From Oerskovia jenensis (GTDB lineage: Bacteria > Actinomycetota > Actinomycetes > Actinomycetales > Cellulomonadaceae), in assembly GCF_016907235.1 (NCBI RefSeq), contig NZ_JAFBBO010000001.1, forward strand, positions 1,302,001-1,366,000: a stretch of DNA of 64,000 nt, given 5' to 3'. The notes beneath the pieces are model-generated. The model was not told the origin of the DNA and did not search any database. It saw only the letters and a list, made by a program, of their open reading frames with translations. Numbering within the stretch: the stretch's first letter is position 1; every line of letters starts with the position of its first letter. Positions 33,956-62,061 of this stretch are shown in pieces. Made by a program: the position numbers and the translations under genes.

Positions 33956-34549
33956 TCAGAGGAGGTCGCGGCCGAGGACCGTGCACTCGGCGTCGACGTA
34001 CCCGAGCCCCTCGTAGAAGCCCAGGACCTGCGTGTTGGTCGTGCGCACCATGAGGCGCACCTTGCGCACGCCCTGCGACGCGAGCCACGCCTCCGCGGCG
34101 ACCACCGCGTCGCGGCCGAGCCCCGTACCCTGCAGCTCGGGCGCCACGGCGACGTAGTAGATCCAGCCGCGGTGCCCGTCGAACCCGGCCATCGCCGTCG
34201 CGACGACGGCGCCCGCCCCGCTCGCCGGAGCGTCCGGGGCACCCGCGTGCGCGACGAGGATCGTCGAGGACCCTGCCGTCCGGGCGTCCGCCACGTCGAG
34301 GTGGGGGTCGTTCCACGGCCGGGCGAGACCGCACGCCTCCCACAGGACCACGACCTGCTCGACGTCGGCGTCGGTGATCTCCCGGAAGTCGACACCACCC
34401 ACGGAGAACGGGCCGACGGCGCCGTCCCGCACCGGCTCGACCGCGCCCTCAGGGGCGGTCTGCGCGGGTCCAGGCTCGCCGCCGGTGGGCGCACCCGCGC
34501 CGAGGGCGTTCGTCAGCCCGACCCCGTCGCGGATGCGGCCCGGAGCCAT
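33956..34549 (-). CDS. GNAT family N-acetyltransferase
   Basis: A 197-residue protein. An unstructured N-terminal ~45 residues precede a GNAT fold with the acetyl-CoA loop VAVAPELQGTGLGRDAVVAAE and ending TTNTQVLGFYEGLGYVDAE. The pattern resembles YpeA-type acetyltransferases. The substrate is unknown. The ATG shares one base with the guaB3 stop (TGATG), so translation is coupled to guaB3. Confidence 0.9.
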   Translation of the reverse strand: MAPGRIRDGVGLTNALGAGAPTGGEPGPAQTAPEGAVEPVRDGAVGPFSVGGVDFREITDADVEQVVVLWEACGLARPWNDPHLDVADARTAGSSTILVAHAGAPDAPASGAGAVVATAMAGFDGHRGWIYYVAVAPELQGTGLGRDAVVAAEAWLASQGVRKVRLMVRTTNTQVLGFYEGLGYVDAECTVLGRDLL

Positions 34550-35673
34550 CAGCGCGGCTGGTACGGCGAGACGACGACCTCGACGCGCTGGAACTCCTTG
34601 AGGTCCGAGTAGCCCGTCGTGGCCATCGCGCGCTTGAGCGCGCCCACCAGGTTGAGCGTGCCGTCGGCCTGACGACCCGGGCCGAACAGGATCTCGTCGA
34701 GCGAGCCCGCGGTGCCGACGCTCACGCGCTCGCCACGAGGAAGCTGCGGGTGGTGCGCCTCGGAGCCCCAGTGCCAGCCCTTGCCGGGCGCCTCGGTGGC
34801 ACGCGCCAGGGCGGCGCCGAGCATCACCGCGTCCGCACCGCACGCGACGGCCTTGACCAGGTCGCCCGAGCGCCCCACGCCACCGTCGGCGATGACGTGC
34901 ACGTACCGGCCGCCCGACTCGTCCAGGTAGTCACGACGCGCCGCCGCGACGTCCGCGACGGCCGTCGCCATGGGTGCGTGGATGCCGAGGCTCACACGCG
35001 TCGTGTGCGCCGCGCCGCCGCCGAAGCCCACGAGGACGCCGGCCGCACCCGTACGCATGAGGTGCAGGGCCGCGGTGTAGGTCGAGGCGCCGCCGACGAT
35101 GACCGGGACGTCGAGCTCGTAGATGAAGCGCTTGAGGTTGAGCGGCTCCGCGTTGCCCGAGACGTGCTCGGCCGAGACCGTGGTGCCGCGGATGACGAAC
35201 AGGTCCACCCCGGCGTCGACGACGGTCTTGTAGAACTCCTGCGTGCGCTGCGGCGACAGGGCGCCCGCGACCGTGACGCCGGACTCCCGGATCTCCTTGA
35301 GGCGCTGGGTGATCAGCTCGGCCTTGATGGGCTCGGCGTACACCTCCTGCATGCGACGCGTCGCGCTCGGGGCGTCGAGCGTCGCGATCTCCGCGAGGAT
35401 CGGCTCCGGGTTCTCGTAGCGCGTCCACAGCCCCTCGAGGTCCAGGACGCCCAGGCCGCCCGCGTTGCCCAGGGCGACCGCGGTCGACGGGCTCATCACC
35501 GAGTCCATGGGGGCGGCCAGGATCGGCAGGTCGAAGTGATAGGCGTCGATCTGCCACCCGACCGACACGTCCTCCGGGTCACGCGTACGCCGGGAGGGGA
35601 CCACGGCGATGTCGTCGAAGGAGAAGGCGCGCCGTCCGCGCTTGCCACGACCGATCTCGATCTCGTTGCTCAC
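34549..35673 (-). CDS. guaB3: GuaB3 family IMP dehydrogenase-related protein
   Basis: A 374-residue IMPDH/GMPR-barrel protein without CBS domains, as in the actinobacterial GuaB3 family. FSFDDIAVVPSRRTRDPEDV replaces the usual IMPDH start, followed by LPILAAPMDSVMSPSTAVAL, VIADGGVGRSGDLVKA and GADAVMLGAAL. I see no canonical GxGSxCxTR catalytic loop; GFGGGAAHTTR stands there instead, so IMPDH activity is doubtful; some GuaB3 proteins act as GMP reductase. GTG start follows TATCCT by 6 nt. Confidence 0.92.
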   Translation of the reverse strand: MSNEIEIGRGKRGRRAFSFDDIAVVPSRRTRDPEDVSVGWQIDAYHFDLPILAAPMDSVMSPSTAVALGNAGGLGVLDLEGLWTRYENPEPILAEIATLDAPSATRRMQEVYAEPIKAELITQRLKEIRESGVTVAGALSPQRTQEFYKTVVDAGVDLFVIRGTTVSAEHVSGNAEPLNLKRFIYELDVPVIVGGASTYTAALHLMRTGAAGVLVGFGGGAAHTTRVSLGIHAPMATAVADVAAARRDYLDESGGRYVHVIADGGVGRSGDLVKAVACGADAVMLGAALARATEAPGKGWHWGSEAHHPQLPRGERVSVGTAGSLDEILFGPGRQADGTLNLVGALKRAMATTGYSDLKEFQRVEVVVSPYQPR

Positions 35674-35679
35674 CCGACG

Positions 35680-35685
35680 AGGATA
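35680..35685 (-). promoter_or_regulatory. guaB3 -10 element (leaderless)
   Basis: TATCCT on the minus strand, 6 nt before GTG. Confidence 0.6.
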
Positions 35686-35753
35686 CCGGCCCCGGGCACG
35701 GGCACGCCCTCGCGCGCCACGCGATGGACCATGGCGTCCCAGCAGCACCACCC

Positions 35754-35803
35754 GTCAGGGCTGTCAGGGCTGTCAGGGCTGTCAGGGCTGTCAGGGCTGT
35801 CAG
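35754..35803. repeat. 9-bp tandem repeat, 5.5 copies
   Basis: GTCAGGGCT is repeated five times exactly plus GTCAG, in the divergent region between guaB3 and the exonuclease gene. It ends 97 bp before the exonuclease start and begins 80 bp upstream of the guaB3 start. Confidence 0.95.
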
Positions 35804-35900
35804 TGGCCGCTGGCATGCTCACCAGCAGAGACCAGGGACGGTCGCGCACGGCGAGGACCGCCGGGCCACCACCCACAGGACGACCGCAAGGAGCACGACG

Positions 35901-36599
35901 ATGAGCTGGACGACCGGACCGCTGCTGGGCTTCGACACCGAGACCACCGGGGTCGACGTCACGAACGACCGCATCGTGACCGCCGCGCTCGTGCGGCGCG
36001 TCCCGGGGCGCAGCACCGAGGTCCGGACCTGGCTCGTCGACCCCGGCGTCCCCATCCCCGCGGAGGCCGCCGCGATCCACGGCATCTCGACCGAGCACGC
36101 GGTCCAGCACGGCGTGGCTCCCGGACCGGCCCTCGAGGAGATCGCGACGATCATCGCCGCGGACCTCGCGATCGGCGTGCCCGTGGTCGCGTTCAACGCG
36201 GCGTTCGACCTGTCGCTGCTCGACGCCGAGCTCGCGCGCCACGCACTGCCGACGCTGGGCGAGCGCCTGGGCCGCGAGGTCACGCCCGTGATCGACCCGC
36301 TCGTCCTCGACCGTTCGCTCGACCGCTTCCGCAAGGGCAAGCGCAAGCTCGGCGACCTGTGCGTCCACTACGGCGTGACCGACGGCGGCAACCTGCACAC
36401 CGCGGACGTCGACGTCCTCGCGACGCTCGACGTGCTCGAGGCCATGACCCGCGCCTTCCCCGAGCTCGCCGAGCAGGACCTCGACTCGCTGCACCGCCAG
36501 CAGATCACGGCTCACCGGGCCTGGGCCGAGAACTTCAACACCTGGCGCGCCGGCCAGGGATACGTCGGCGCGGGGGCCAGCACCACGTGGCCGTCGTGA
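35901..36599 (+). CDS. 3'-5' exonuclease, DnaQ-like (DEDDh)
   Basis: A 232-residue exonuclease. Exo I FDTETTG (D and E), Exo II VVAFNAAFDLSLLDAEL (D) and Exo III HTADVDV (H and D) are intact, giving a complete DEDDh active site. IPAEAAAIHGIS is typical of DNA polymerase III epsilon-like domains. It is stand-alone, as in stress or repair exonucleases. ATG at 35901 is set by AAGGAG 7 nt upstream. Confidence 0.93.
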   Translation: MSWTTGPLLGFDTETTGVDVTNDRIVTAALVRRVPGRSTEVRTWLVDPGVPIPAEAAAIHGISTEHAVQHGVAPGPALEEIATIIAADLAIGVPVVAFNAAFDLSLLDAELARHALPTLGERLGREVTPVIDPLVLDRSLDRFRKGKRKLGDLCVHYGVTDGGNLHTADVDVLATLDVLEAMTRAFPELAEQDLDSLHRQQITAHRAWAENFNTWRAGQGYVGAGASTTWPS

Positions 36600-36741
36600 G
36601 CCGCTCCGACTGACAGACAGACCGGCAGACAGACCAGGGCCACCCCCAGGCCCGTCGCCCGTGAAACCTCATAGAACATATGGGCCGCTCGTGATGATCC
36701 CGTGAAATCGGGCCGCCACCCCAAGATCACCGCGCCAATAT

Positions 36742-36753
36742 CTCATCGATGAG
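36742..36753. promoter_or_regulatory. 12-bp palindrome over the XRE-MurA promoter
   Basis: CTCATCGATGAG is a perfect palindrome ending 1 bp before the -10 hexamer TACCGT (36755-36760). A protein bound here would block the core promoter; the obvious candidate is the HTH domain encoded by the same gene. Confidence 0.5.
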
Positions 36754-36754
36754 T

Positions 36755-36760
36755 TACCGT
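36755..36760 (+). promoter_or_regulatory. XRE-MurA gene -10 element (leaderless)
   Basis: TACCGT, 6 nt before ATG 36767. Confidence 0.5.
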
Positions 36761-36766
36761 CGGCTC

Positions 36767-38308
36767 ATGACCATGGTCGACGAAGCACCCCAGCACCTCG
36801 CACAGGTCGCCGCACTCATCCGCGGCGCACGCCAGAACAAGGGCCTCACCCAGGCTCAGCTCGCCGAGCGCCTCGGGACGAGCCAGAGCGCGATCCATCG
36901 GATCGAGCAGGGCTCGCAGAACGTGAGCCTCGACATGCTCGCCCGGATCAGCGCGGCGCTCGACTCGGAGATCATCTCGTTCGGGGCTCCCAAGCACTCC
37001 CACCTGCGGGTCAGCGGCGGCCACGAGCTCTCCGGTCGCATCGAGGTCAACTCGTCGAAGAACGGCGCCGTCGCGCTGCTCTGCGCCTCGCTCCTCAACC
37101 GTGGCCGCACCACCCTGCGCCGCGTCGCGCGCATCGTGGAGGTCGACCGCATCGTCGACGTCCTGCGGAGCATCGGCGTCCAGGCGGTCTGGTCCGCCGA
37201 CGGTCGTGACCTCGAGATCGTCGTGCCCGCGCAGCTCGACCTCGCGTCGATCGACGTCGACGCCGCGCGCCGCACCCGCTCGATCATCATGTTCCTCGGT
37301 CCCCTGCTCGGTCTCCAGGACGAGTTCTCCCTCCCCTACGCGGGCGGCTGCGACCTGGGCACGCGGACCGTCGAGCCCCACATGATCGCGCTGCGCCCGT
37401 TCGGGCTGTCGGTCACCGCGGCCTCGGGCAACTACGAGGCGATCGTCGCAGCCCCCGGCACCCACGACCTGAGCGTCGTCCTCACCGAGCGTGGCGACAC
37501 CGTCACCGAGAACGCGATCATGGCCGCCGCCTCGCGCGACGGCGTGACCACGATCCGCAACGCGAGCCCCAACTACATGGTCCAGGACCTCTGCTTCTAC
37601 CTCGAGCTCCTGGGCGTGCGCATCGAGGGCATCGGCACCACGACGCTGCGCATCCACGGTCGCACCGACATCGACGCCGACGTGGAGTACGCGGTCTCGG
37701 AGGACCCGGTCGAGGCCATGAGCCTCCTGACCGCCGGGATCGTCACGGGCTCGGAGATCACGGTCGCGCGCGTACCCATCGAGTTCATGGAGATCGAGCT
37801 CGCGACCCTGTCCGAGATGGGACTGCGCTACTCGCTCTCTCCCGAGTACCTGGCGCTCAACGGACGCACCCGTCTGGTCGACGTCACGGTCCACCCGAGC
37901 GAGCTGCACGCACCCATCGACAAGATCCACCCCATGCCGTTCCCGGGGCTCAACATCGACAACCTCCCGTTCTTCGCCGTCATCGCGGCGTGCGCGAGCG
38001 GGCACACCCTCATCCACGACTGGGTGTACGAGGGCCGGGCCATCCACCTGAGCGACCTCACGCGCCTCGGCGCCGACGTCCGGCTGCTCGACTCGCACCG
38101 GCTCGACATCACGGGCCCGACCCACTGGTCGGGCGCCGAGGTGAGCTGCCCGCCCGCGCTGCGGCCCGCCGTCGTGATCCTGCTCGCGATGCTCGCGGCG
38201 AAGGGCACCTCGGTGCTGCGCAACGTCGACATCATCTCGCGCGGATACGAGCAGCTCCAGGAGCGGCTCATCGAGCTCGGCGCGCGGATCGAGACCTTCC
38301 GCGACTGA
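36767..38308 (+). CDS. MurA-like enolpyruvyl transferase fused to an XRE-type HTH domain
   Basis: A 513-residue fusion. Residues about 12-72 are an XRE/Cro helix-turn-helix (IRGARQNKGLTQAQLAERLG, then QSAIHRIEQG). Residues about 78-513 are an EPSP/MurA-fold domain like UDP-GlcNAc 1-carboxyvinyltransferase. MurA residues kept: K98 and N99 (E. coli K22/N23) in SSKNGAVALL, C195 and R200 (C115/R120) in AGGCDLGTRTV, and Arg in SRGYEQL (R397). The D305 region is altered (FPGLNIDNLPFF). So either a DNA-binding enzyme or a regulator using a MurA fold to sense a cell-wall precursor. ATG at 36767 is preferred; ATGs at 36749 and 36773 are alternatives. Confidence 0.9.
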   Translation: MTMVDEAPQHLAQVAALIRGARQNKGLTQAQLAERLGTSQSAIHRIEQGSQNVSLDMLARISAALDSEIISFGAPKHSHLRVSGGHELSGRIEVNSSKNGAVALLCASLLNRGRTTLRRVARIVEVDRIVDVLRSIGVQAVWSADGRDLEIVVPAQLDLASIDVDAARRTRSIIMFLGPLLGLQDEFSLPYAGGCDLGTRTVEPHMIALRPFGLSVTAASGNYEAIVAAPGTHDLSVVLTERGDTVTENAIMAAASRDGVTTIRNASPNYMVQDLCFYLELLGVRIEGIGTTTLRIHGRTDIDADVEYAVSEDPVEAMSLLTAGIVTGSEITVARVPIEFMEIELATLSEMGLRYSLSPEYLALNGRTRLVDVTVHPSELHAPIDKIHPMPFPGLNIDNLPFFAVIAACASGHTLIHDWVYEGRAIHLSDLTRLGADVRLLDSHRLDITGPTHWSGAEVSCPPALRPAVVILLAMLAAKGTSVLRNVDIISRGYEQLQERLIELGARIETFRD

Positions 38309-38442: not shown

Positions 38443-39978
<1,536 letters not shown>

Positions 39979-50085: not shown

Positions 50086-50742
50086 CTTTTCCGCAGGCCG
50101 GTTCGCGGCCAGGTCCTGGTCGGCCGGCCCGCCGGCGGCCGGGTCCGCTGCGGCGTGCTCCGCCTCGACCGCCGTGCGCAGCCCGTCCGCGAGCCGGTCG
50201 ACGTCGGCCCACCGGTCACCCAGGGCGCGCACGGTCACGTGCCGGACGCCGGCCTCGGGCGACTCGGTCTCGTCGTCGGGGTCGACCGGCTCGCCGTCGG
50301 TCTCGCCGGACCGGGACGTCCCCGCCGTGGCGGACGTGTCGACGCCGCCGCGCGGACGCTCGATCGTGATCTCCAGGCGGTCCTCCGCGAGCGACTCCAC
50401 GAGGTCCTGCCCCCACTCGACGACCGTGACCGACTCGTCGAGGCTCGCGTCGAGGTCGAGGGCCTCGACCTCGTCGAGCGAACCGAGGCGGTAGGCGTCG
50501 ACGTGGACCAGGTACGGGCCGTCCGCGAGCGGCGGGTGGACGCGCGCGATGATGAAGGTCGGCGACGCGACCTGGCCCCGCACCCCCAGCCCCGCGCCGA
50601 TGCCCTGCGTCAGGGTCGTCTTGCCCGCGCCCAGGTCACCCGTGAGCATCACGAGGTCGCCCGCGCGCAGCTCGCGCGCCAGGGCCAGGCCGAACGCGCG
50701 GGTCGCGTCCGCGTCGGGCAGGTCGAAGGTCAGGTCGGTCAT
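50083..50742 (-). CDS. tsaE: tRNA threonylcarbamoyladenosine biosynthesis ATPase TsaE
   Basis: A 219-residue P-loop ATPase driving the t6A cycle. Walker A GDLGAGKTTLTQGIG, then SPTFII, HVDAYRLGS and TVVEWGQDLVE are conserved. ATG at 50742 overlaps the alr stop and has AGGAG 8 nt upstream; a GTG nine bases earlier is less likely. The C-terminal ~90 residues, with an acidic insert (about 135-165), exceed the usual ~155-residue family length. Confidence 0.95.
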   Translation of the reverse strand: MTDLTFDLPDADATRAFGLALARELRAGDLVMLTGDLGAGKTTLTQGIGAGLGVRGQVASPTFIIARVHPPLADGPYLVHVDAYRLGSLDEVEALDLDASLDESVTVVEWGQDLVESLAEDRLEITIERPRGGVDTSATAGTSRSGETDGEPVDPDDETESPEAGVRHVTVRALGDRWADVDRLADGLRTAVEAEHAAADPAAGGPADQDLAANRPAEK

Positions 50743-52169
50743 GACAGCCACTCCTGGTCGTCGTGCGTGCGGTCACGCAGCGTGTGGTCCTGTGCGCGGT
50801 CCGCCCGCGCCGGGGCGGGCCCGCCGAGAGCGGCGTCACCGCCCGTGGTGGGCTCCGCCGTCGGGCCCGACGCGTCGCCGCCGTCCCGATAGACGCGCGG
50901 CACGCGGGCTCCCAGCCGCGTCGTGATCTCGTAGCTGATGGTGCCGGCGGCCAGCGCCCAGTCCTCCGCGGTCGGGGCCCCGCCGCGCGCGAGGCCCGCA
51001 CCGGGGCCGAACAGCGTCACGACGTCGCCCGCCCGCTCGGCGGCGTACGGGCCCAGGTCGAGCACGAACTGGTCCATGCAGACCCGCCCCGCGACGTGCA
51101 GGACGCGGCCCGTGCCGTCGATCCCGCCCGTCTCGTCGATCGGCCCGCCGACCAGCACGGGCCCACCGGGCCGCTCGGGCAGGGCACCCGACGCGTGCCG
51201 TGGGATGCCGTCGGCATAGCCGAGCGGGACCACACCGAGGATCGTCGCGTGCGACGTCGTGTAGGCGTGCGCGTAGGACACGCCCTGTCCCTCCGGGACG
51301 TGCTTGACCGTCGCGAGCTCGGCCTCGAGCGTCATGGCCGGGGTCAGACCGAAGTCGTCGGGCGTCCCGAGCTGCGGGACCGGCGAGAGCCCGTAGACGG
51401 CCAGACCCGGGCGGACCAGGTCGTAGTGGACGCGGGGGTTCGTGAGCGTCGCGGCCGAGTTCGCGAGGTGACGCACCTCGAGCCGCACCCCCGCGGCCTC
51501 GGCCGTGCGGACCGCGTCGTCGAAGACCTCGGCCTGGTGCAGGACGGTCGGGTGCTCGGGCTCGTCCGCGAACGCGAAGTGCGACCAGATCCCGACGACG
51601 CTCAGGACCCCTTCCGACTCCGCGCGCCGGGCCGCGTCGAGCACGGCCGGGAGCTGGTCGGGCACGATCCCGTTGCGACCGAGCCCCGTGTCGATCTTGA
51701 GGTGCACGCGCGCCGGGCGGCCGGCCGCGCGACCCGCCGCAGCGACCTCGTCGAGGGCCCAGGGCGCGGCGACCGAGACGTCGATCTCCGCCTCGACCAG
51801 TGCCCGCAGCGGCGCCCCGGGGGCGTAGAGCCACGTGAGGACCCGCGCCCGGTCCGGGCCGATCCCCGCGGCGCGCAGTGCGAGCGCCTCCGAGACCTGG
51901 GCCGTGCCGAGCCACGTCGCACCGCCCGCGAGCGCCGCACGCGCGCTGGGCAGCAGGCCGTGGCCGTACGCGTCGGCCTTGACGACGGCCATGACCTGCG
52001 CGGTGCTCGCACGGGACGCGAGCGACTCGACGTTCGAGCGGATCGCGTCCAGGTCGATCACGGCACGCGCCGGGTAGTAGTCGGCGGGATGCACGGCACC
52101 GGCCGCCGTGAGGGGGGTGAAGTCGTCCGCGGATCCGTGCCTGGGGTCGCTGAAGGGGCTCACGGTCAC
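50739..52169 (-). CDS. alr: Alanine racemase
   Basis: A 476-residue PLP enzyme making D-alanine for peptidoglycan. The PLP lysine is in VMAVVKADAYGHGLLP, the catalytic Tyr in GVSYAHAYTT context, and GYADGIPRHASG, GRVCMDQFVLDLG and YEITTRLGARVPRVY follow. A ~60-residue polar tail beyond the usual end runs into tsaE. GTG at 52169 or 52163 is the start; GAGAAT upstream favours a short or absent leader. Confidence 0.95.
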   Translation of the reverse strand: MTVSPFSDPRHGSADDFTPLTAAGAVHPADYYPARAVIDLDAIRSNVESLASRASTAQVMAVVKADAYGHGLLPSARAALAGGATWLGTAQVSEALALRAAGIGPDRARVLTWLYAPGAPLRALVEAEIDVSVAAPWALDEVAAAGRAAGRPARVHLKIDTGLGRNGIVPDQLPAVLDAARRAESEGVLSVVGIWSHFAFADEPEHPTVLHQAEVFDDAVRTAEAAGVRLEVRHLANSAATLTNPRVHYDLVRPGLAVYGLSPVPQLGTPDDFGLTPAMTLEAELATVKHVPEGQGVSYAHAYTTSHATILGVVPLGYADGIPRHASGALPERPGGPVLVGGPIDETGGIDGTGRVLHVAGRVCMDQFVLDLGPYAAERAGDVVTLFGPGAGLARGGAPTAEDWALAAGTISYEITTRLGARVPRVYRDGGDASGPTAEPTTGGDAALGGPAPARADRAQDHTLRDRTHDDQEWLS

Positions 52170-52258
52170 CGATTCTCTCACCGGAACGCCCGGCCGGGGG
52201 TGAGCGGTCCCCGCCCCGGAGGAGACGGGCGCTCCCGACGACGGTGACGCCGTCGGGC

Positions 52259-53236
52259 CTAGGACCACTCCTGGAGGGGCCGCGTCGTCTCGAACCGTCG
52301 TGCCTCGCCGCTGAGCGGGTCGACGAACTCGATCGAGCGAGAGACGAGCTGGAGCGGGCGGCCGAAGTCGTCGGGGCGCACGTCGTAGAACGTCGGGTAG
52401 AAGTTGTCGTGCAGGATCGGCAGGCCGAGCGAGTTCATGTGCAGCCGGAGCTGGTGGGTCTTGCCGGTGTGCGGCGTCAGGCGGTAGAGGCCGAGCGTGC
52501 CGGCCACGGCCTCCCGGGTGTCCACGAGCTCGACGAGGCTCTCGGAGTTCGGCTCGCCGGGAACCTCGAAGGCGCGCATGACGCCGCGCTCCTTGTGGAT
52601 GCGGCTGCGCACGACGCGCGGGAGGTCGAGCGCAGGGTCGACACGAGCCACGGCCTCGTAGACCTTGGTCACGCGGCGCTCGGCGAAGAGCGTCTGGTAC
52701 GGGCCGCGGACCTCGGGTCGTACGGTCAGGACGAGCACCCCGGCCGTGACCCTGTCGAGCCGGTGCGCGGGCGAGAGCTCGGGCAGGTCGAGGTCTCGGC
52801 GCAACCGCACGAGCGCCGACTCGGCGATGAACGCCCCCCGGGGGATGCTCGCGAGGAAGTGCGGCTTGTCGACCACGACGAGGTCGTCGTCCCGGTACAG
52901 GATCTCGATCTCGAAAGGCACGCGCGTCTCGACGGGCGGGTCCCGGTAGAGGAACACGCGCGCGTGCTGCGCGAAAGGGGTCTGCGCCGTGACCGGCCGA
53001 CCCAGGTGGTCGACGACCTCGCCCGCGGCGACCTTCTCGCGCAGGCGCGGCTCGTCGTCGGGGAAGCGATGGACGAGATGGTCCAGCACGGTCTCCCAGC
53101 GCGGGGACCCCTCGCCCCCGTCCCCGTTCGCGGGCAGGACGACGCGCGTGGCGTTGAGCCCGTCCCGCACGGGCAGCGGCTGGGACGGGGCACGCCGACG
53201 GCGCGGCGGGACGTGAGAGGTCGTGGGGGGCGGCAC
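52259..53236 (-). CDS. RluA-family pseudouridine synthase
   Basis: A 325-residue rRNA or tRNA pseudouridine synthase. The catalytic Asp lies in AHRLDRVTAGVLVL (about residue 158), with LVVVDKPHFLASIP upstream and PHTGKTHQLRLHMNSLGLPI downstream. An N-terminal ~40-residue basic/Pro extension precedes a probable S4-like region. The specific uridine is unknown. GTG at 53236 is fixed by TACCGT ending 6 nt upstream. Confidence 0.92.
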   Translation of the reverse strand: MPPPTTSHVPPRRRRAPSQPLPVRDGLNATRVVLPANGDGGEGSPRWETVLDHLVHRFPDDEPRLREKVAAGEVVDHLGRPVTAQTPFAQHARVFLYRDPPVETRVPFEIEILYRDDDLVVVDKPHFLASIPRGAFIAESALVRLRRDLDLPELSPAHRLDRVTAGVLVLTVRPEVRGPYQTLFAERRVTKVYEAVARVDPALDLPRVVRSRIHKERGVMRAFEVPGEPNSESLVELVDTREAVAGTLGLYRLTPHTGKTHQLRLHMNSLGLPILHDNFYPTFYDVRPDDFGRPLQLVSRSIEFVDPLSGEARRFETTRPLQEWS

Positions 53237-53242
53237 GCCACC

Positions 53243-53248
53243 ACGGTA
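53243..53248 (-). promoter_or_regulatory. -10 element of the pseudouridine synthase gene (leaderless)
   Basis: TACCGT on the minus strand, 6 nt before GTG. Confidence 0.5.
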
Positions 53249-53288
53249 GCCGCTGCCCCACGACGGTCCGCTCCGGACGGCGAGGCGC

Positions 53289-59042: not shown

Positions 59043-60908
59043 CTACTCGACCGTGACCGACTTCGCGAGGTTGCGCGGCTGGTCGACGTCGAGCCCCTTG
59101 GCCGTGGCGAGAGCCATGGCGAAGATCTGCAGCGGGACGACCGCGAGCAGCGGCGACATGAGGGTCGGCGACTGCGGGATCCAGAAGATCTCGTCGGCGT
59201 AGGGCAGCACCGCGTCGTCGCCGTCCTCGGCGATCACGAGGGTGCGTGCGCCGCGGGCGCGGATCTCCTGGATGTTGGAGACGACCTTCGAGTGCAGCGA
59301 GTCGCGACCGCGCGGGGACGGCACGACGACGAAGACCGGCTGCCCCTCGTCGATGAGCGCGATGGGCCCGTGCTTGAGCTCGCCCGCGGCGAAGCCCTCG
59401 GCGTGGATGTAGGCGAGCTCCTTGAGCTTGAGCGCTCCCTCGAGCGCGACGGGGAACCCGACGTGGCGCCCCAGGAAGAGCACCGACGTCGCGTCCTTCA
59501 TGGAGCGGGCCACGGCGCTGACGTACTCGCCCCGCTCGATGACCGTCTGGATCTTGCGCGGCATCTCGCGCAGGTCGTCGAGGATCTCGCGGATCTCGTC
59601 GGGGAACTTGTTCCCGCGCAGCTGGGCGAGGTAGAGGCCCAGGAGGTAGGCGGCGGTGATCTGCGAGAGGAACGCCTTGGTCGAGGCGACGGCGATCTCG
59701 GGTCCTGCGTGCGTGTACAGGACGGCGTCGGACTCGCGCGGGATGGTCGACCCGTGCGTGTTGACGATCGAGATGACCTTGGCGCCCTGCTCGCGCGCGT
59801 GGCGCACGGCCATGAGGGTGTCCATGGTCTCGCCCGACTGCGTGACGGCGACGACGAGCGTCTTCTCGTCGACGATCGGGTCGCGGTAGCGGAACTCGTG
59901 CGCGAGCTCGACCTCGACGGGGATGCGGCACCAGTGCTCGATCGCGTACTTGGCGACGTGCCCCGAGTAGGCGGCCGTGCCGCAGGCCACGACGATGATC
60001 TTGTCGACGGTGCGCAGCACCGCCTCGTCGATGCGCAGGTCGTCGAGGACGAGCCGCCCGTCGGCGTCGGTGCGTCCGAGCAGGGTGTCGGCGACCGCGT
60101 GCGGCTGGTCGTGGATCTCCTTGTCCATGAAGGACGAGAAGCCACCCTTCTCGGCTGCGGCGGCGTCCCAGTCGACCGTGAAGCGGGTGGCCTCGGCGGG
60201 CTTGCCGTGGAAGTCGACGACCTCGACGCTGTCCGGGGTGATGGTCACGATCTGGTCCTGGCCGAGCTCGAGCGCGTCCTTGGTCGACGCGATGAACGCG
60301 GCGACGTCGGAGCCGAGGAAGTTCTCGCCGTCCCCGAGCCCGACGACGAGCGGGGAGTCGTGCCGGGCGCCGACGACGGTGGTCGGGGCGTCCGCGTGGA
60401 CGGCGAGCAGGGTGAACGTGCCTTCGAGCTGGCGCGCGACGTAGGCCATCGCCTCGGTCAGGTCCCCGGTGCGTCGGTACGCGCGGGCGAGGAGCTGGGC
60501 CGCGACCTCGGTGTCGGTCTCGGAGAGGAAGGTCGCGCCGTCGGCGAGAAGCTCCTCCTTGAGGACGGCAAAGTTCTCGACGATCCCGTTGTGGATCACG
60601 GCGAGGCGGCCGTCGTCCGCTACGTGCGGGTGCGCGTTGGTGTCGTTGGGCGCGCCGTGCGTCGCCCACCGGGTGTGCCCGATCGCCGCGGAGGCCGCGG
60701 GCAGGGGGTGGGCCTGGAGCTCGTCGACGAGCTTGACGAGCTTTCCGGACTTCTTGGCCGTCGCGACCCCCGCCTGGTCGGGCGCGACGAGCGCGACCCC
60801 GGCCGAGTCGTAGCCGCGGTACTCGAGCCTGCCGAGTCCTTCGAGGACGACGTCGAGGGGTCGCCCCGACGCTTCAAGGGGGCCTGCGTAACCCACGATT
60901 CCACACAT
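59043..60908 (-). CDS. glmS: Glutamine-fructose-6-phosphate aminotransferase
   Basis: A 621-residue enzyme making glucosamine 6-phosphate for peptidoglycan. Cys2 of MCGIVGYAG is the glutaminase nucleophile; HTRWATHGAPN, HNGIVENF and FLSETDTEV follow. Two SIS domains (about 300-600) carry VACGTAAYSGHVAKY, TQSGETMDTL and PHR-type contacts; it ends NLAKSVTVE. ATG at 60908 is required for Cys2. TAGACT ends 8 nt upstream, so the leader is 0-2 nt. No glmS ribozyme is seen. Confidence 0.97.
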   Translation of the reverse strand: MCGIVGYAGPLEASGRPLDVVLEGLGRLEYRGYDSAGVALVAPDQAGVATAKKSGKLVKLVDELQAHPLPAASAAIGHTRWATHGAPNDTNAHPHVADDGRLAVIHNGIVENFAVLKEELLADGATFLSETDTEVAAQLLARAYRRTGDLTEAMAYVARQLEGTFTLLAVHADAPTTVVGARHDSPLVVGLGDGENFLGSDVAAFIASTKDALELGQDQIVTITPDSVEVVDFHGKPAEATRFTVDWDAAAAEKGGFSSFMDKEIHDQPHAVADTLLGRTDADGRLVLDDLRIDEAVLRTVDKIIVVACGTAAYSGHVAKYAIEHWCRIPVEVELAHEFRYRDPIVDEKTLVVAVTQSGETMDTLMAVRHAREQGAKVISIVNTHGSTIPRESDAVLYTHAGPEIAVASTKAFLSQITAAYLLGLYLAQLRGNKFPDEIREILDDLREMPRKIQTVIERGEYVSAVARSMKDATSVLFLGRHVGFPVALEGALKLKELAYIHAEGFAAGELKHGPIALIDEGQPVFVVVPSPRGRDSLHSKVVSNIQEIRARGARTLVIAEDGDDAVLPYADEIFWIPQSPTLMSPLLAVVPLQIFAMALATAKGLDVDQPRNLAKSVTVE

Positions 60909-60916
60909 GGTCTCGG

Positions 60917-60922
60917 AGTCTA
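60917..60922 (-). promoter_or_regulatory. glmS -10 element
   Basis: TAGACT on the minus strand, 8 nt before ATG. Confidence 0.5.
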
Positions 60923-61023
60923 GCCCGACGCCCAGGGGGCGTCGCAGCCGCGACATCTCGCGGTTCTTTGTTAGCGGTCCAGCCTCTTCGTGTTCATGAT
61001 CGGGCCGGACGTCCGGCAGAATC

Positions 61024-62061
61024 GTGCGAGTGGTTCCTTCCTCCGACCTGCCCGTCACTCCGCTCGAGGGTGTTCCCGCGACCGACCAGGACTCCGCGTC
61101 CGGTTCCGGACGCCTACCGGATCTCTCGACGGCGTCCCCGTACGTCGACCTGGATCGTGCGGCGTGGAGCAGGCTCTCCGAGTCGACGCCGCTGCCGCTG
61201 ACGGATGCCGACGTCGTCAAGCTCCGCGGGCTGGGTGACCCCATCGACCTGGCGGAGGTGGACGCGATCTACCGCCCCATCTCGCGGCTGCTCAACCTGT
61301 ACGTGACGGCCACGAGCGGGCTGCACGAGGCCACCTCGACGTTCCTGCGCGAGAACTCGACCCGCACGCCGTACGTGATCGGGGTCGCGGGATCGGTCGC
61401 GGTCGGCAAGTCGACGACGTCGCGCATCCTGCGCGAGATGCTCGCGCGCTGGCCGGAGACGCCCCGGGTCGAGCTCATCACGACGGACGGATTCCTCTAC
61501 CCGAACGCCGAGCTCGCACGCCGCGGGCTCATGGAGCGCAAGGGGTTCCCCGAGTCGTACGACCGTCGCGCCCTGATCCGCTTCCTGTCCCGGGTGAAGG
61601 CAGGCGTGCCCGAGGTCCGCAGCCCGGTCTACGACCACCTGACCTACGACATCGTCCCGGGGGCCGAGACCGTCGTCCGCAGACCGGACGTCCTGATCGT
61701 GGAGGGCCTCAACGTCCTCCAGCCTGCCCGACCGGGCCCGTCCGACGACCAGGCCGTGGCGGTGAGCGACTTCTTCGACTTCTCGATCTACGTCGACGCG
61801 CGCACGCGCAACATCCGGCAGTGGTACGTGGACCGGTTCCTGTCGCTGCGCCGGACCGCGTTCGCGCGCCCCGAGTCGTACTTCAAGCGCTACGCGACCC
61901 TCACGGACGAGGAGGCCATCGAGAAGGCCAAGTCGATCTGGGACTCGATCAACGCGCCGAACCTCGAGGAGAACATCCTGCCGACGCGGGGTCGCGCGAC
62001 GCTCGTGCTCACGAAGGGCTCGGACCACTCGGTCCAGCGGGCACGTCTGCGCAAGGTCTGA
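61024..62061 (+). CDS. coaA: Pantothenate kinase, type I
   Basis: A 345-residue type I PanK, the first step to CoA. Walker [18 protein letters not shown] (about residue 120), [39 protein letters not shown] and [11 protein letters not shown] are diagnostic. The ~40-residue Ser/Pro-rich N-terminus is longer than usual. GTG at 61024 or 61030 is the start; CAGAAT (61017-61022) is 7 nt before 61030, which favours that codon. Divergent from glmS across 115 bp. Confidence 0.95.

Follow-up and report, generated by a model that had tools for sequence, protein, structure and literature searches.

A MurA-type enzyme of Actinomycetes with a DNA-binding head and a conserved putative operator before its own gene

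What does an enzyme of the MurA fold do with a DNA-binding head, and to which DNA would that head bind? The question is raised by an open reading frame at 36749-38308 (+) of the window, by which we mean the whole stretch of 64,000 nucleotides analysed here. A sequence-only reading had taken its product for an XRE helix-turn-helix (HTH) joined to a full MurA-like domain, and had seen in it either a regulator that reads UDP-GlcNAc or PEP levels directly or a working second MurA with self-control. Read from ATG 36749, the protein has 519 aa. As this ATG lies inside a palindrome (36739-36756), and as a TAnnnT box ends 6 nt before ATG 36767, we placed the start at the latter, giving the following features:

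36767..38308 (+): HTH-MurA2 coding sequence, 513 aa; ATG 36767 is the most likely start, ATG 36773 an alternative
36818..36967 (+): XRE/HTH_3 DNA-binding domain (profile match; helices in the structure model)
36878..36907 (+): recognition helix TSQSAIHRIE (orthologue alignment; structure model)
37013..38269 (+): MurA-fold (EPSP_synthase) domain (profile match, Foldseek and VIA structure comparison)
37349..37351 (+): catalytic Cys195, equivalent to E. coli Cys115 (orthologue alignment)
37487..37513 (+): rebuilt diphosphate-binding loop ERGDTVTEN (alignment; E. coli S162-V163-G164 replaced by G-D-T in 166/166 rows)

The two-domain fusion is real, and both halves of the proposed architecture were borne out by profile matches and a structure model. 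On the 519-aa reading, the HTH_3 profile covered residues 24-73 with 51.7 bits (gathering score 23; E 9.2e-14) and EPSP_synthase residues 89-507 with 142.7 bits (gathering score 22.8; E 1.8e-41), while the model, with a mean pLDDT of 88.3, has HTH helices at residues 7-24, 29-36, 40-47 and 55-65. Comparison of the model with 1eyn (VIA Z 45.4, rmsd 2.1, 412 residues) identified the MurA fold; MurA structures in general, for which Foldseek was also used, scored a VIA Z of about 45 over about 410 residues, in an alignment spanning model residues 77-513, that is, the chain without its HTH part. NikO (4fqd), an enolpyruvyl transferase of Streptomyces tendae with a MurA-like fold, scored lower (VIA Z 40.5). 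With canonical MurA, as represented by TIGR01072, the E. coli and actinobacterial enzymes and the MurA1 of the same genome, the protein has the fold, the PEP-site residues and Asp305 in common, but it differs by its N-terminal HTH, by rebuilt diphosphate and uracil loops, by an equivalog score below cut-off and by forming a long-branched clade of its own. Its TIGR01072 murA equivalog score was 290.1 against a cut-off of 392.7 bits, and the matches of this family stayed below that cut-off in all 24 fully scored genomes; PRK09369, the NCBIfam subfamily of UDP-GlcNAc 1-carboxyvinyltransferase, gave 303.5 bits, above its cut-off of 297. The HTH was present in all 105 orthologues of a first alignment, whose loci are the best-scoring matches, and homologues with a downstream start and no HTH were not seen among them. 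Over these 105 unique sequences the commonest residue had a mean share of 0.81 in the HTH and 0.82 in the enzyme domain, so that the two are equally well conserved.

The family corresponds to the actinobacterial "MurA2": from gene content, a nearby aconitase and a BldM-WhiI-like core, we infer that Streptomyces SCO5998 (sven5810 / vnz_28735) is the orthologue. The Streptomyces members that we fetched have the HTH-MurA anatomy and the operator described below, as in Oerskovia. Aconitase-matching sequence lies upstream in many Streptomyces loci and is annotated as such in one of them (L111), and in the available part of PMC12161575, SCO5999, which adjoins SCO5998, is an aconitase; the Oerskovia neighbours, unlike these, are IMP dehydrogenase and exonuclease genes. 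According to the available parts of the respective papers, Streptomyces murA2 is a direct BldM-WhiI target (PMC4125116), has a SigB-dependent promoter (PMC8346170) and is among the predicted targets of DmdR1 (PMC12161575), while its overexpression failed to reproduce the phenotype of whiI overexpression (PMC11005364). In these parts, murA2 is treated as one of a pair of UDP-GlcNAc transferases, as a target of BldM-WhiI or SigB, or as a predicted target of DmdR1, and neither the HTH nor an operator of its own is mentioned; in the open-access literature searched, no account of MurA2 was found that covers its HTH, operator or autoregulation. The SigB promoter published for SCO5998 (PMC8346170) was searched by exact sequence patterns near the gene in the Streptomyces loci L076-L113, without a match.

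The DNA upstream of the gene offers a candidate for the site bound by the HTH. New here is a conserved palindrome, TATCTCA-N4-TGAGATA, which overlaps a putative -10 box before a leaderless start and is common to the upstream DNA of Oerskovia, Cellulomonas, Geodermatophilus, Nocardioides, Aeromicrobium and Streptomyces. In the window, its elements are:

36739..36756 (+): putative operator, the imperfect palindrome TATCTCATCGATGAGTTA, with 1 mismatch to TATCTCA-N4-TGAGATA
36755..36760 (+): putative -10 box TACCGT, which overlaps the operator by its first two bases and ends 6 nt before the presumably leaderless start ATG 36767

We counted 166 distinct proteins in 177 loci with the fusion, with distinctness judged by letters, so that one strain entered twice with different ends (L082 and L157); the operator count omits one row that lacks the anchor residue. 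In 163 of the remaining 165 rows the operator was found with at most 3 mismatches (0, 1, 2 and 3 mismatches in 44, 81, 24 and 14 rows), as it was in 105/105 orthologues of the first set (23, 55, 15 and 12). These counts are not independent, because they include many close relatives, chiefly of Streptomyces and Aeromicrobium, and at least one strain counted twice (L082/L157). When upstream regions were shuffled (2100 in all), the palindrome was matched at best with 2 mismatches in 0.05% of them and with 3 in 0.1%, and never with fewer than 2. The Oerskovia genome of 4.45 Mb contains a single site with at most 2 mismatches, located at the gene's own promoter, and 9 places with at most 3. The eight weaker operator-like sites, each with exactly 3 mismatches, include G000:C1:1213400, 2284803 and 2679232 along with five more. 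A wider regulon was considered and rejected, as this genome has no other site at 2 mismatches or fewer. In the family f34, as read from the rows, exactly one match with at most 1 mismatch was present on each strand in 34/36 genomes. A 17-base form of the site, at no more than 1 mismatch, had some match in 263/394 genomes of the class; chance matches are therefore common also in genomes without the gene.

In 102/105 orthologues a TAnnnT box occupies a fixed place, overlapping the final two bases of the palindrome, and the first in-frame start follows this box by 5-9 nt in 90/105. Of the remaining starts, one lies 2 nt and one 79 nt after the box, and 13 overlap it, because the first in-frame start was always taken. 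This pattern points to a leaderless promoter whose -10 box is overlapped by an operator. At one locus (L177, G209:C24:76058-78824), MurA2 is in two pieces, and operator-like sites occur at both 77644 and 78807, about 1.16 kb from each other.

If the HTH of MurA2 binds this palindrome, changes in one might be mirrored in the other. The recognition helix opens with TSQSA or SSQSA in 160/165 rows. In Aeromicrobium Root495 (L082, and again as L157) a unique helix, TTQSV, goes together with a symmetric operator change, TATCGCATATATGCGATA; among 49 genomes of its genus this sequence occurs without mismatch only in Root495, and one other genome has a 1-mismatch match to it, away from its MurA2 gene. 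Two rows from a single genus, L171 and L176, have MTGTDI and MTEQDI in place of TSQSAV and have lost the operator (7 mismatches), although they keep a TACGAT box and the start. They are the only ones of the 165 rows without an operator and the only ones with a replaced recognition helix. Their sister L159 has a TSQGA helix and a symmetric site, TAACTCATATATGAGTTA. The covariation thus comes down to a symmetric change in a single strain, a second and weaker symmetric variant in L159, and a loss confined to one genus; few as these apparent events are, they tie the HTH of MurA2 to the palindrome. Genomes G273 (L171) and G081 (L176), both of genus g6, showed no MurA besides this one, which lacks operator and recognition helix but keeps the -10 box, as though MurA2 had been converted there to a constitutive housekeeping MurA. 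In L176 (G081:C1:1261846-1263362), as in L175 (G301:C1:2095131-2096650), MurA2 is split over two frames near residues 381-398; as G081 showed no further MurA, the split may reflect a sequencing error or recoding.

The distribution of the fusion bears on what the enzyme domain does. Counted from the rows listed, 114/394 genomes of the class contain it. A phylum sample of 246 genomes included 225 outside the class, where the best E-value was 2.1e-60; judged by each genome's best E-value none of these 225 has a close relative, and among the matches listed outside the class identity was at most 36% and nearly all start after the HTH. A more distant fused relative outside the class is possible. In a tree, MurA2 formed one clade with 50/50 sampled members on a long branch (support 0.71). 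The Oerskovia genome, a single contig whose best segments are 98% identical to those of the closely related Oerskovia rustica and 97% to those of O. turbata, encodes two further PF00275 proteins: one at 1055852-1057153, its MurA1, which passes the murA equivalog cut-off, and one at 3746421-3747560, which scores 34 bits, as expected of AroA. In a TIGR01072 search, 8 of the 24 fully scored MurA2 genomes, two of them single-contig (G255 and G211), had no canonical MurA, but only MurA2 and weak AroA-like matches. In a survey of the class that scored at most 4 candidates per genome, 348/394 genomes passed the TIGR01072 cut-off, leaving about 46-47 without canonical MurA. Read from the rows, these comprise 40/114 MurA2 genomes, namely 33/36 in f34, 5 in f4 and 2 in f46. 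Judging from L082/L157, f34 includes Aeromicrobium, and no canonical MurA was among the matches listed for the 49 genomes of the Aeromicrobium genus. These bacteria need peptidoglycan, yet no other MurA was found in these genomes; MurA2 therefore most likely uses UDP-GlcNAc there, and would thus make the peptidoglycan precursor.

The active site is consistent with a working enzyme. The catalytic Cys, Lys/Asn pair, loop Arg and RGYE Arg had been noticed as kept, and this was confirmed, with the Cys at residue 195 counted from ATG 36767. K22, N23, R91, C115, R120, D305, R331, R371 and R397 (E. coli numbering) do not vary in any row that has a letter there, which is 164 or 165 of 166 rows depending on the position; the catalytic Cys, as in E. 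coli MurA and in the organism's own MurA1, is found in 165/165 such rows. In 20 of 22 comparison MurA sequences (L116-L135), by contrast, the position of Cys115 is Asp; species with both MurA types may differ in their response to fosfomycin. The region of Asp305 had been called altered. Asp305 itself (Asp398 here) is retained in all 164 rows that have a letter at this position. The adjacent residue, Thr304, is Thr in 21/22 comparison sequences and Ile in 163/164 MurA2 rows.

The substrate loop, on the other hand, is rebuilt. S162-V163-G164 are identical in all 22 comparison sequences, a narrow set of 20 actinobacterial sequences, E. coli MurA and the organism's own MurA1, compared to G-D-T throughout MurA2. 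L124P, K160E, V161R and P121T are near-invariant in MurA2, while the comparison set is variable at all four positions, and the position of E. coli D369 is Pro. In the available part of PMC8698320, S162, V163 and G164 form the biphosphate region of MurA, and in that of PMC9842644, a mutational scan of E. coli MurA, S162 tolerates only T, G164 nothing and D369 only E. The solved MurA-deposited proteins of Campylobacter and Acinetobacter have Thr at 162, and that of Campylobacter (5ujs) also has Thr at 164, as in MurA2. By itself, the rebuilt UDP-diphosphate loop suggests another acceptor.

The gene neighbourhood is less informative. The sequence-only reading had pointed to glmS, glmM and alr in the same window; in ncbifam scans of 30 other ORFs, a part of those in the window, glmS (within 59043-61244, -) and alr (within 50739-53261, -) were recovered and glmM was not. 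Across 38 loci compared (ORFs of at least 120 aa, E 1e-15), each neighbour family recurred in 7 at most, so that the nearby glmS and alr carry little weight. A gene-cluster function was rejected, as every family above 7/38 loci consisted of the gene itself or of its shadow frames. The exonuclease and MurA2 genes are flanked by two proteins of the IMP dehydrogenase family, at 34549-35751 (-) and 38446-39966 (-). Ahead of the exonuclease domain, at about 35754-35802 of the window, there are short in-frame repeats, VRAVRAVRAVRAV in ORF 35724-36599 and CQGCQG in another frame.

We consider it likely that HTH-MurA2 is a working MurA-type enolpyruvyl transferase and, at the same time, the repressor of its own gene. 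The earlier idea of a working second MurA with self-control thereby appears well supported, namely by the invariant catalytic residues, the conserved operator in the gene's own promoter and the lineages in which MurA2 is the sole MurA. The two-domain anatomy and the covariation of operator and helix lend further support at the level of sequence. In the mechanism that we propose, the N-terminal XRE head, presumably as a dimer, would bind the one palindrome overlapping the -10 box of the leaderless promoter, and once there is sufficient enzyme, bound MurA2 would block transcription. The C-terminal domain would move enolpyruvyl from PEP, beside a canonical MurA in most species and as the only MurA in some lineages. 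We infer the promoter with its leaderless start, repression over activation, the dimer and the use of UDP-GlcNAc as acceptor through the altered loop. As the palindrome overlaps the putative -10 box, is the single site in the genome at 2 mismatches or fewer and changes together with the recognition helix, the HTH very probably represses its own gene; an enzyme with its own DNA-binding head and a matching, conserved switch at its own gene most likely sets its own supply. BirA, NadR and PutA are such enzyme-repressors, or trigger enzymes, of the BirA type, and like them MurA2 has a metabolic enzyme fused to a DNA-binding head, and a putative operator in its own promoter (163/165 rows). It differs from them in its MurA fold and XRE head, and in that its own promoter is the only genomic site at 2 mismatches or fewer. 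Beyond this, and held with less than even confidence, MurA2 could sense the state of its own active site, with UDP-GlcNAc, PEP, product or fosfomycin closing the enzyme domain and altering the grip of the XRE head.

Other accounts of the locus depart from this reading on either its enzymatic or its regulatory side. MurA2 might retain the PEP chemistry and transfer enolpyruvyl to an acceptor other than UDP-GlcNAc, in which case its name would be wrong. NikO acts on UMP, and the invariant G-D-T at 162-164 and Ile at 304 fit such a switch, as do, at positions where the comparison set itself varies, the near-invariant L124P, K160E, V161R and P121T, and as does the place of S162, V163 and G164 in lining the diphosphate site according to the available literature; a plant MurA reported active on shikimate-3-phosphate (available part of PMC11588093) indicates that acceptors can vary in this fold. 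This was once our leading idea. The 8/24 fully scored genomes with MurA2 but no canonical MurA, and Thr164 in 5ujs, demoted it to an alternative that we now regard as unlikely, the more so as the comparison set is narrow and the solved Campylobacter and Acinetobacter MurAs vary at 162. That the enzyme is dead and retained as the ligand sensor of a regulator, for which the HTH fusion and the rebuilt loop could be cited, is highly improbable in view of the catalytic and PEP residues, Cys115 included, which are invariant where present, and of the genomes in which MurA2 is the only MurA found.

On the regulatory side, the palindrome might belong to another regulator, such as BldM, WhiI or DmdR1, with the HTH of MurA2 serving something else. 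BldM-WhiI binds the Streptomyces murA2 promoter (PMC4125116), and DmdR1 has a predicted site adjacent to it (PMC12161575), both according to the available parts of these papers. The published BldM and BldM-WhiI motifs, as far as the available text gives them, are nevertheless unlike the palindrome, on which grounds BldM/WhiI was rejected as its owner, and the BldM-WhiI-like core, present in 7/38 Streptomyces loci (L076-L113), lies upstream of both palindrome and promoter, 57-58 nt before the start. Moreover, the site is kept in Oerskovia, Aeromicrobium and Nocardioides and changes or vanishes with the MurA2 recognition helix, so we give this account little credence. Similarly slim is the chance that MurA2 activates its own promoter. 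Some XRE proteins are activators, but activator sites usually lie at or upstream of -35, whereas the operator sits just upstream of, and extends into, the putative -10 box, the position of a repressor. This position suggests repression, short of proof.

If the reading of HTH-MurA2 as enzyme and own repressor is correct, it would be a MurA that acts as its own DNA-binding regulator, spread through a large part of the Actinomycetes, and the Streptomyces sporulation gene murA2 would gain a testable mechanism and a defined operator. The natural variants, in which operator and helix have changed together or have both been lost, provide ready controls. In the lineages where MurA2 is the only MurA found, a diphosphate loop that E. 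coli does not tolerate must work. Should the protein also sense its active site, a single protein would match the committed step of peptidoglycan synthesis to precursor supply, and in Aeromicrobium and its family this sensing protein would mostly be the cell's only MurA.
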